From: Halichondria panicea
Taxonomy: Eukaryota > Porifera > Demospongiae > Suberitida > Halichondriidae
Assembly: GCF_963675165.1 (NCBI RefSeq)
Contig: NC_087380.1
Span: 80,001 to 144,000 of the forward strand
Reading direction: 5' to 3'
DNA length: 64,000 nt
Shown in pieces: positions 26,601 to 42,601 of the stretch. Below the pieces are notes generated by a model, which was given only the letters and a program-made list of their open reading frames with translations, made no database searches and was not told the DNA's origin. Both the position numbers and the translations under genes were made by a program. How positions within the stretch are numbered: the first letter of the stretch is position 1; every line of letters starts with the position of its first letter.

Positions 26601-27102
26601 GATGCTAGCTCAAAGTTACGGTCAGTCTTGAGGCGATATTTATCACGAGCTTGGTGTCTAATAATGGAGGGAGGAATCAGCCAGAGAATGGATAATGGTC
26701 AGTACATGTGCTTGATTATAATGCTGTTTTGATATGCACACACACACACACTATACATGTACCTACACACCCACACCACACAGGCACTATACACACAGGC
26801 ACTATACCTGCACACAGGCACTATGCACACAGGCACTATACCTGCACACAGGCACTATGCACACAGTGCTCACCTTTTGACTAGACACACGATGACAATG
26901 ATGGTGATGGTTATGGCCACTATGAGCACAAGGACCACCACAACGGCTCCAATGATGATACCCATGTCACTAATATCATCAGGGGGGATGGGCGCCACTA
27001 TCGGAGGAGAGGCTGTAGGGACATGGGGAGATAATTATAGCTAACCAAAGGATAGCAGCTACATGCACATGTAGGACAACTTACATTGTGAAGTTCCCCC
27101 TG
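20683..27102 (-). CDS. Receptor protein tyrosine phosphatase 2: FN3 end + TM + D1/D2 (5' part lost in assembly gap)
   Basis: Minus-strand exons: 27085-27102 (runs into Ns), 26874-27012, 26443-26657, 26213-26310, 26000-26087, 25823-25899, 25639-25773, 25455-25586, 24644-24943, 24426-24575, 24029-24128, 22597-22670, 22188-22374, 21984-22063, 21567-21730, 21059-21194, 20683-20766. The TM exon reads [21 protein letters not shown] long acidic/Thr-rich juxtamembrane segment and a wedge ([17 protein letters not shown]) follow. D1 is intact: WPDHG (Asp codon near 24883) and [11 protein letters not shown] (Cys codon 24782-24784). D2 has EWPLDG instead of a WPD loop and MCNDGVGRTG (Cys codon 21569-21571), the same His-to-Met change as RPTP1. 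The final ectodomain bases before the TM exon match receptor A, so the missing ectodomain probably belongs to that family. Convergent with RPTP1, divergent from receptor A. Confidence 0.92.
21899..21979 (+). repeat. (CA)n microsatellite
   Basis: About 40 CA units in an RPTP2 intron, ending a few bases from the donor at 21983. Confidence 0.95.
22984..24045 (-). repeat. 34-bp minisatellite, about 31 copies, repeating the RPTP2 splice donor
   Basis: On the plus strand the unit is TTACATGGCCCCCTGTCTAT followed by TGCTAGTATATAGC. Read on the gene strand, every unit contains CCATGTAAGC. The real exon end (24029) has the same CCAT/GTAAGC, and many units carry the exact AGACAGAGTGCCAT of the exon's last codons. 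Confidence 0.95.
24139..24190 (+). repeat. (GT)n microsatellite
   Basis: Pure GT tract in the RPTP2 intron just beyond the exon ending at 24128. Confidence 0.95.
25208..25454 (-). repeat. 47-bp minisatellite, 5 copies, abutting an RPTP2 donor
   Basis: Unit AGTAGCCCCCACTGGAATGG followed by AGGCCCCCACACTGTGTGATATGTACT. The last copy ends directly at the GTGAGTAC donor of the exon 25455-25586. Confidence 0.93.
26100..26210 (-). repeat. Short tandem repeat abutting an RPTP2 donor
   Basis: About 2.5 copies of a 46-base unit (GGTGGGGGGTAAGGTAGTG, TGTACAGTGGGGGTATACAT) next to the exon 26213-26310. Confidence 0.8.
26757..26870 (+). repeat. Tandem repeat ACACAGGCACTATRC
   Basis: About seven variants of an 18-base unit in the intron next to the RPTP2 TM exon. 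Confidence 0.8.
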
Positions 27103-27302
27103 NNNNNNNNNNNNNNNNNNNNNNNNNNNNNNNNNNNNNNNNNNNNNNNNNNNNNNNNNNNNNNNNNNNNNNNNNNNNNNNNNNNNNNNNNNNNNNNNNN
27201 NNNNNNNNNNNNNNNNNNNNNNNNNNNNNNNNNNNNNNNNNNNNNNNNNNNNNNNNNNNNNNNNNNNNNNNNNNNNNNNNNNNNNNNNNNNNNNNNNNNN
27301 NN
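27103..27302. other. Assembly gap (200 N)
   Basis: Exactly 200 Ns between the truncated ectodomain of RPTP2 and the start of receptor A. The round number suggests a placeholder; the true distance is unknown and should include the RPTP2 ectodomain. Confidence 0.98.
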
Positions 27303-42300: not shown

Positions 42301-42601
42301 AGGGGAGTATGAGATGGTTGGAGGCACATCAGCTGGCTATGAGAACAGGGCTGCTATAATGGCCACCAAACAAACATCACCGCCCCCTCAACCCCCTCCA
42401 CAACCCTCACAACCCTCACAACAGGAGACAGTGGATACCGGGGGTGACTTTGAGGTCACTGAGTGCATTGCCTACAGCACTACCACCCATGGCCCCCCTC
42501 CCCCCAACACGACCACCCATGGCCCCCCTCCCCCCAACACTACCACCCATGGCCCCCCTCCCCCCAACACGACCAGTGGAGACCCACTGTATGCTAACTG
42601 A
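27314..42601 (+). CDS. Receptor A: V-like/CCP/Ig/FN3 transmembrane receptor with ITAM-like tail (29 exons, about 2776 aa)
   Basis: Exon starts: 27314, 27477, 27894, 29197, 29691, 29933, 30963, 31976, 32316, 32653, 33022, 33486, 33842, 34224, 34564, 34890, 35275, 35638, 35999, 37273, 37673, 38909, 39255, 39827, 40449, 41058, 41483, 41624, 42178; total 8331 bases, phases consistent. Order: signal peptide (MILGALLVIVVAS), double-Cys V-like domain, one CCP, a Thr/Glu 9-residue repeat stalk, three CCP, three Ig, two FN3, a second V-like domain, eleven Ig, two FN3 (the second with NRKRQ, a possible convertase site), a Cys-containing membrane-proximal region, TM (VIGGVVGVVIVLIIAVTI) and a tail of about 150 aa with YEMIEMGDHEYEEV, YEMV, YENR, YAN and proline runs. 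No kinase or phosphatase domain. Likely a cell-surface recognition receptor that signals through phosphorylated tyrosines (inference). ATG 27314 is followed by a typical signal peptide, but the N gap hides any upstream exon. Confidence 0.87.
28233..28445 (+). repeat. (GT)n-(GTGC)n microsatellite, about 210 bp
   Basis: A pure GT tract changes to GTGC tetramers near 28365, in the intron between the first CCP and the stalk exon of receptor A. Confidence 0.97.
28465..28985 (+). repeat. Dispersed repeat interrupted by a MITE
   Basis: Matches 30236-30500 (AGTTTCTATAGGCTTCTAG through GCCATTAA) apart from the 204-base insertion described separately. Both copies lie in receptor A introns. Confidence 0.8.
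28551..28754. mobile_element. MITE with TA target duplication (Tc1/mariner-like)
   Basis: The left end TCGTATTACTAGAAT is the inverted match of the right end ATTCTAGTAATACGG with one mismatch. The inner arms remain partly complementary for about 45 bases. TA flanks both sides (28549-28550, 28755-28756). The related repeat at 30236-30500 shows the uninterrupted site GAGTTATGGCTAG. A fragment of the same family lies at 44447-44555. Confidence 0.85.
29209..29559 (+). repeat. Coding 27-bp repeat, 13 copies (TMATTEEEA stalk)
   Basis: Each unit encodes nine residues, TMATTEEE plus A or V. Thr and Glu dominate, which suggests an extended, possibly O-glycosylated, acidic stalk. It sits between the first and second CCP domains of receptor A and has no counterpart in B or C. 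Confidence 0.95.
30236..30500 (+). repeat. Dispersed repeat, uninterrupted copy
   Basis: Same family as 28465-28985 without the MITE; provides the empty insertion site. Confidence 0.8.
31282..31426. repeat. Foldback element with about 47-bp inverted arms
   Basis: ACAACATCACGTGCGTGGA at 31282 is mirrored by TCCACGCACGTGATGTTGT ending at 31426, and the arms stay complementary to about 31327/31378 with few mismatches. It lies in a receptor A intron. Confidence 0.85.
36374..37255. repeat. About 0.9-kb dispersed element in a receptor A intron
   Basis: Shares almost its whole length with 45530-46340 plus 47369-47475 in receptor B, at a non-homologous intron, so it moved independently of the gene duplication. 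It contains internal inverted arms (AGGCCTTACTTTTTCTT class and GGCTCTCCTTTTTC class). No coding capacity seen. Confidence 0.85.
38017..38098 (+). repeat. (GT)n microsatellite in receptor A intron
   Basis: The pure GT run is followed by GTGCGTGC. In receptor B the homologous intron holds only a short GTGC run (54419-54490). Confidence 0.95.
38117..38740. mobile_element. Inverted-repeat-bounded insertion carrying a 66-aa ORF
   Basis: Left arm 38117-38191 and right arm about 38664-38740 are inverted copies (GTATACAGAGAAGAGGGCAT / ATGCCCTCTTCTCTGTATAT, and CATCCGACTTCGTAT / ATACGAAGTCGGATG). The homologous intron of receptor B (54408-54535) lacks it, which supports an insertion. The class is unknown. 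Confidence 0.7.
38347..38547 (+). CDS. Small ORF (66 aa) nested in a receptor A intron
   Basis: It starts MTSPSPARSKTTPSSGKL, has a basic middle (GRIVKKYQRLMQED) and one hydrophobic stretch (HLLGVATVGWFAF), and ends HTAAEN. It is intact from ATG to stop, on the same strand as the host gene, and centred between the inverted arms of the insertion. I do not recognise the family. It could be a captured or retroposed small membrane-protein gene, or chance. It ends 360 bases before the next receptor exon, and nothing indicates it is spliced into the receptor. Confidence 0.4.
   Translation: MTSPSPARSKTTPSSGKLSAGRIVKKYQRLMQEDRFIVPRFHLLGVATVGWFAFDTASTSHTAAEN
40131..40405 (+). repeat. 39-bp minisatellite, 7 copies, in receptor A intron
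   Basis: Unit GACTATTGTTAGGGAGGGTG followed by GTCCCTCCTATAGAGCTAG. The unit holds a GGAGGG/CCCTCC hairpin. Because 39 is divisible by three, frames stay open through it. Confidence 0.95.

Follow-up and report, generated by a model that had tools for sequence, protein, structure and literature searches.

The question raised by this locus is whether one family of sponge ectodomains has been placed over two different kinds of signalling end. In the window, here the whole 64,000-nucleotide stretch analysed (C4:80001-144000, in a Halichondria panicea genome of 131 Mb and 39 contigs; positions without a contig name are those of the window), the receptor-type protein tyrosine phosphatase (PTP) gene RPTP2 (20683-27102, minus strand) stands, across an assembly gap, head to head with receptor A (27314-42601, plus strand), whose transmembrane (TM) segment leads into a tail with tyrosine motifs. 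The original prediction, made from the letters of the window, was that the two have an ectodomain junction in common and belong to a paired-receptor system. We put at roughly 0.6 the probability that H. panicea has a large receptor superfamily in which a pool of ectodomain modules (X, CCP, Ig, FN3 and Calx-beta) is combined with two or more classes of cytoplasmic end and acts as paired receptors; most of the copies listed lie on C4, with a second locus on contig C1. One class of end is a tyrosine phosphatase of LAR type with D1 and D2; the other consists of short tails with many YxxI/V motifs, in some cases strict immunoreceptor tyrosine-based activation motifs (ITAMs). Nearly identical ectodomains on different signalling ends are found for RPTP1 and LOC135334957, and for the C1 genes RPTPa, RPTPb, T1 and T2; for RPTP2 and A the comparison of outer parts covers the membrane-proximal junction.

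RPTP1, also in the window (8279 to about 20232, plus strand; its 3' end was read from the sequence, the gene model having stopped early), encodes an X domain, what read as roughly five Ig-like and seven FN3-like units (the first Ig by Pfam), a TM segment, D1 and D2. Its residues 1-423 match isoform X3 of LOC135334957 at 82% and residues 659-1341 at 85%, which totals about 1,080 ectodomain residues from the signal peptide into the last FN3; the stretch between the two blocks is present, by reading, in isoform X2. The protein search behind this match scored 7987 candidates and yielded three proteins, two of H. panicea and the third a fish Ig protein at 27% identity. Beyond the match, isoform X3 continues into CCPs, an X domain, a TM segment and a tail with YETD, YEEI, YSYS, YLTV and YDN, and despite its RefSeq name of RPTP delta-like it has no phosphatase, there being no PTP in its precomputed Pfam list. 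The X exon of LOC135334957 (C4:1569903), used as genome query, has a single close relative, the X exon of RPTP1 (8551-8883, plus strand), at 87%, the next reaching 38%. Since there is just this one close relative, the ectodomain of RPTP1, judged by its X exon, occurs twice, once on a phosphatase and once on a tyrosine tail. The tail type of LOC135334957 (the YEEI tail) has 40 matches in the genome, 38 of them on C4.

At the C1 locus the phosphatase receptors RPTPa and RPTPb (minus strand, 17528-17552 kb) are faced by five plus-strand genes, T1-T5, with FN3 exons at 17566, 17571, 17577, 17583 and 17589 kb and without a D1 match. The 5' end of T1 falls in an N run (C1:17558518-17563517). Pfam places Calx-beta and FN3 above cut-off in RPTPa, and Calx-beta below cut-off in the stretches of RPTPb and T1 that were tried. 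The ectodomain comparison took in RPTPa, RPTPb, T1 and T2, with T3-T5 left out. RPTPa and T1 align over 2,927 bp, introns included, at 89.5%, with the TM exon at 86%, and 3' of the TM exon no similarity was found by DNA comparison; RPTPb and T2 have the beginning of the gene in common, 604 bp at 88%. When the comparison is cut into 15 steps of 200 bp, the DNA identity of RPTPa and T1 ranges from 75 to 99%, and because the nearest partner of RPTPa is not the same in all steps, being T1 in some (92% vs 75% for RPTPb) and RPTPb in others (90% with T1 vs 95%), the similarity among the three is a mosaic; in the last FN3 step RPTPa agrees with T1 at 198/200 and with RPTPb at 195/200. The ratio w (dN/dS), with few changes behind each value, is 0.16 for the catalytic exon of RPTPa vs RPTPb (6 changes) and 0.68-1.45 for the ectodomain exons common to RPTPa and T1, and between A and a neighbouring receptor of its family, B, the two X exons have w of about 1.0 and the highest nonsynonymous divergence (dN) among the first 15 exon pairs. 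Taken together, the values would agree with a weaker constraint on the outer parts than on the catalytic exon.

CCP-like exons are also common to a phosphatase receptor at C4:2.09 Mb, which has X and many such exons, and a receptor with an A-type tail at 2.11 Mb, with matches that reach 484 bp at 85% and 225 bp at 92%; between their TM parts no DNA match was found. The proposal that a single ectodomain family is carried by both phosphatase and tail receptors is thus borne out by RPTP1 and LOC135334957, by the C1 genes and by these CCP-like exons, and for RPTP2 itself it extends to the junction only.

At that junction, the terminal 18 bp of the last RPTP2 ectodomain exon, CAGGGGGAACTTCACAAT (27085-27102, minus strand), have the same letters as 41409-41426 (plus strand), the end of A's exon 41058-41426, and the following exon opens with the 17 bp CCTCTCCTCCGATAGTG in both (26996-27012, minus strand, in RPTP2 and 41483-41499, plus strand, in A), both identities being as first described. 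The 18-mer GGGGGAACTTCACAATGT, in which the donor GT follows the final 16 bases of the exon, is found at 6 places in the genome, all on C4, its carriers being RPTP2 and five A-family exons; CCTCTCCTCCGATAGTG is found at 5 places, likewise all on C4. The RPTP2 intron (27013-27084, minus strand) is alignable with that of A (41427-41482), and from the exon end through the whole intron to the 17th base of the next exon the alignment has 107 columns, of which 81 are identical and 16 are gap columns. Its score is 85, and none of 300 shuffles went above 27. The RPTP2 junction scores 61 with the A-type copies at C4:149117 and C4:233297, 43 over 24 bp with those at C4:163504 and C4:177342, and 40, 46 and 55 with the remaining three of the eight A-type copies. 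Because the intron between the identical exon ends aligns too, and well above shuffles, the junction is, on this alignment, one of common descent. Beyond the 17 bp, A continues with what reads as a SEA-like stretch, absent from RPTP2, and the TM stretches of the two are weakly similar (score 32 vs at most 23 in 300 shuffles).

From the junction on, RPTP2 is, as had been predicted, a TM segment followed by a D1/D2 phosphatase: the 18 bp of ectodomain exon, the TM exon (26874-27012, minus strand, its first 17 bp those of A), a juxtamembrane region and the two PTP domains give one open spliced frame of 728 aa with two PF00102 (Y_phosphatase) stretches, 461.5 bits, in a model of which three internal splice sites are not GT-AG. 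D1 retains WPDHGVP and the catalytic cysteine loop, and the order of TM, D1 and D2 is that of a receptor-type tyrosine phosphatase; in a PDB search the closest solved structures to the interior of the protein are PTPRS, LAR and PTPRA, and D1 also matches CD45 chains. The 5' part of the gene is lost in a 200-N gap (27103-27302), which hides the ectodomain but for the 18 bp, and the head-to-head order of RPTP2 and A depends on this join. The last FN3 exon of A (41058-41426, plus strand) has eight genome copies at 89% identity or more, that of A included; all eight precede an A-type tail, and an orphan exon of this kind that could belong to RPTP2 was not found in the assembly. A search with the TM and juxtamembrane parts for a longer RPTP2 relative gave no match among 323 candidates of about 930-2950 aa, a range that short partial models would escape. 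Judging by the junction, the last ectodomain domain of RPTP2 is most likely an A-type FN3. The intron between its D1 and D2 contains about 31 copies of a 34-bp minisatellite (22983-24042).

The gene model of receptor A, of about 29 exons that are mostly phase 1 with approximately one domain each, encodes a signal peptide, X, a CCP, a TTEEE stalk, CCPs, Ig/FN3, a second X, Ig, FN3, the SEA-like stretch, TM and the tyrosine tail. Pfam recognises fn3 and one Ig in it, and the RefSeq protein P0005, whose first exons are those of A, is annotated with sushi, Ig and fn3. Two further members of the A family follow on the plus strand, receptor B (43814-58095, its start read from the model) and receptor C (58699-64000), which runs past the end of the window to a tail at C4:149929. 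The first X domain of A (27477-27845, plus strand) has no Pfam match, and its relatives lie 5' of both PTP and tail exons, with overlapping identities; the second is at 33842-34177 (plus strand). RefSeq labels members of this array mucin-2-like, with the tail at C4:164316 closing P0004 and that of B closing P0005. The latter (mucin-2-like isoform X3) joins A ectodomain exons (27314-40655) to the last FN3, TM and tail of B (56660-58095), a join that would come from splicing of one tandem copy into the next or else from an artefact of mapping. The stalk of A, ATTEEEATM, is encoded by an in-frame 27-bp repeat in 13 copies (29205-29561), and a 39-bp repeat in 7 copies (40133-40407) lies close to the last FN3, in an intron of A, being coding in the gene model and not in P0005. 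These models were obtained by seeding gene finding with the A exons and the RPTP2 PTP exons; they replaced a first, self-trained round in which genes ran together. The window is adjoined by an N run at C4:77501-80000.

The tail exon of A (42178-42601, plus strand) reads YEMI-x6-YEEV-x10-YEMV, YENR, YSTT and LYAN, and the TM segments of A and B do lead into tyrosine-motif tails, with six and five tyrosines respectively. The leading arrangement, with YEII in some as first motif, is conserved in all seven A-family tails read. On C1, three of the five tails (T1, T2 and T4) contain a strict ITAM, the spliced YEHI-x9-YETI, which also includes VVYETI; T5 and a gene at C1:14.68 Mb have YEHV and match the relaxed form of the motif only, and the T3 tail is not readable as far as the second motif. 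By chance, 53 of 20000 shuffles of the T1 tail give a strict ITAM. Elsewhere in the genome, exon matches give an SH2-SH2-kinase layout of Syk or Shark type (C9:5255365-5259157, minus strand) and an SH2-SH2-PTP layout of SHP type (C3:8404007-8406287, minus strand); the putative proteins could be readers of such tail motifs.

Over the whole genome there are at least 176 PF00102 matches among the best 150 of 361 candidates. The layout analysis took 67 of the 102 rows of the D1 search as D1, 33 distinct A-type tail loci from 38 rows, and, for the unnamed X domain without a Pfam match, 172 distinct loci from the best 150 of 287 candidates and 45 of the 108 rows of a second search. C4 has 58 of the 67 D1 rows and all 33 A-type tails. 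X occurs in two forms, with 18 invariant columns in the seven copies of the window; an AlphaFold model built from those copies had a pLDDT (predicted local distance difference test) of 49 and was not used for structure search. The next end within 10 kb downstream of X is a D1 at 47 of the 172 loci and an A-type tail at 32. Among 59 copies (rows on C4 only, with at least 58% identity to the first X of A and some 95 residues or more covered, partial rows being dropped), identity to that domain is 58-68% for 12 PTP-linked, 61-84% for 12 other A-tail-linked and 63-70% for 21 YEEI-tail-linked copies, with 13 copies having no assigned end. As these ranges overlap, the outer and inner parts of the receptors seem to have had separate histories. 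A separate cluster of X-domain genes is present at C3:6683554-6834553, and tyrosine kinase exons cluster at C4:2520661-2756279 around phosphatase receptors at 2.58-2.61 Mb; a tyrosine kinase is a possible third kind of inner end in the family.

D1 domains remove phosphate from tyrosine, and Src kinases add it to ITAMs, to which tandem-SH2 kinases bind. With outer parts so nearly alike, both receptor classes would be expected to bind the same or overlapping ligands. Src- and Syk-type kinases would phosphorylate and read the tails, and phosphatase receptors gathered at the same ligand would dephosphorylate those tails or set the activity of the kinases, so that, in the manner of paired receptors, the threshold at which a response starts would depend on the ratio of the two classes. 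Exchange between copies could keep the classes matched while their outer domains diverge. The signalling outputs of the two classes would in that case be opposed.

Several observations weigh against such pairing. None of the seven A-family tails contains the strict ITAM, Yxx[IL]-x6-12-Yxx[IL], and the description of the A tail as ITAM-like is upheld in the relaxed sense, with V allowed at +3, in which all seven qualify; the LOC135334957 tail has no strict ITAM either, and its isoform X2 ends directly after the TM segment. The last FN3 of RPTPa vs RPTPb has a w of 0.33. Neither a D1 nor an A-type tail lies within 10 kb downstream of 93 of the 172 X loci, some of which are explained by YEEI tails. 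Along C4 there is no excess proximity of A-type tails and D1, 5 of the 33 tails lying within 30 kb, a number reached in 4224 of 10000 circular shifts, and a side-by-side setting of phosphatases and A-type tails on this contig was rejected as no more than in the shifted controls. The adjacency that had been envisaged is seen on C1, where phosphatase and tail receptors all lie within 62 kb, and is missing for RPTP1, 1.48 Mb from LOC135334957 on C4, and for the C4 A-type tails. To these may be added the precedent of CD45, in which a phosphatase can activate Src kinases, and the Calx-beta and FN3 ectodomains, not like that of A, of the two C1 genes read among the nearest D1 relatives of RPTP2. The paired-receptor reading is right in kind, with RPTP2 as a candidate member, and it overstated both the adjacency and, for A, the ITAM.

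The same genes could have come about by the usual shuffling of exons, with tandem duplication, in a set of large adhesion receptors that are related neighbours, with no functional pairing of phosphatase and tail, and the mostly phase 1 exons of about one domain each, the presence of X, CCP and FN3 modules in all classes and the lack of excess proximity on C4 are what that process would leave. We consider it unlikely as the full account, since RPTP1 and LOC135334957, and RPTPa and T1 up to and including the TM exon, have long ectodomains rather than single modules in common, RPTPb and T2 have a common gene start, and the frames of the common exons are open in the models. Another version keeps the family and reverses the sign, the phosphatase receptor helping the tail receptor by freeing Src-type kinases of inhibitory phosphate. 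The retained motifs of D1 and its matches to PTPRS, LAR, PTPRA and CD45 chains, together with the CD45 precedent, agree with this, and nothing in the sequence speaks against it; because a phosphatase can also free Src kinases in this way, sequence cannot give the sign of its effect. We think this version improbable to about the same degree as shuffling, and prefer the paired-receptor reading set out above.

For RPTP2 in particular, one tentative possibility is that it borrowed only the junction, by gene conversion or exon capture, and that the gap conceals a different kind of ectodomain, for example one of Calx-beta and FN3. Its D1 has no close sister, the nearest being those at C1:17.53, 17.55 and 14.68 Mb (59-60%), of which the two read have just that ectodomain, and the strong likeness to A ends 17 bp into the TM exon; the alignable stretch, however, spans the whole intron and runs right up to the edge of the gap, so that the upstream limit of the likeness is not visible. 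An assembly artefact, with A-family sequence at the contig end foreign to RPTP2 and the head-to-head order a scaffolding error, is very improbable. The stretch does abut the 200-N join, but it equals none of the eight A-type copies, the best agreeing in 81 of 107 columns, and a chimeric contig end or stray A-family read, unlikely for that reason, was set aside; the frame into the TM exon is also open. The order itself stays provisional. Common descent of the junction, with most likely an A-type FN3 as last ectodomain domain, remains our reading for RPTP2.

The sponge aggregation factors are Calx-beta proteins that have been linked to self recognition; the RPTPa ectodomain resembles them in its Calx-beta, and the C1 proteins differ in being membrane receptors with FN3, TM and signalling ends. 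A 1999 paper reportedly named multiple sponge phosphatases in its title. LAR-type (R2A) and R3 receptor phosphatases have an Ig/FN3 ectodomain, TM and D1/D2 as in RPTP1 (PMC5336234); unlike them, the sponge family has X and Calx-beta domains, dozens of copies, and ectodomains in common with non-phosphatase receptors. The immune repertoire of H. panicea has been described in terms of SRCR, NLR, TIR and cytokine-type receptors (PMC8242945, main text), where neither "phosphatase" nor "ITAM" appears; neither "tyrosine phosphatase" nor "ITAM" appears in the main text of PMC12909245. Allorecognition candidates of Botryllus and Hydractinia have ITIM (immunoreceptor tyrosine-based inhibitory motif), hemITAM or YxxI/L/V core motifs, and Botryllus fester/FcoR and Hydractinia alr are likewise invertebrate arrays of Ig/sushi receptors with tyrosine motifs, a likeness at the level of description; in the sections consulted, phosphatases there are separate pathway components (CD45-like RPTPs being expressed) and not an output of the same ectodomain (PMC12065747).

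In the literature searched (titles and the starts of abstracts, with few subscription journals), no prior report was found of one ectodomain on both phosphatase and tail receptors, and it is this that is new here. With tyrosine phosphatases set on the ectodomains of strict ITAM receptors, the sponge offers natural pairs with a similar outer part and two inner ends, and the logic of paired receptors can therefore be tested directly. A more ambitious and rather doubtful proposal is that of a chromosome-scale paired-receptor system in which ITAM receptors would be balanced by RPTPs with the same ectodomain, and not by ITIM receptors; exchange between copies would keep the two matched, and the system would serve the recognition of self or microbes. 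If true, a paired receptor logic in which kinase and phosphatase signalling have a ligand in common would go back to the base of the animals. The vertebrate paired receptors (SIRP, LILR, PIR and KIR) likewise carry near-identical ectodomains on different signalling ends, in tandem arrays with mosaic exchange; their inhibitory member has an ITIM tail where the sponge has a two-domain tyrosine phosphatase, and the sponge ectodomains are far larger. The family described here has the look of an early-animal counterpart to the paired receptors known from immune systems.

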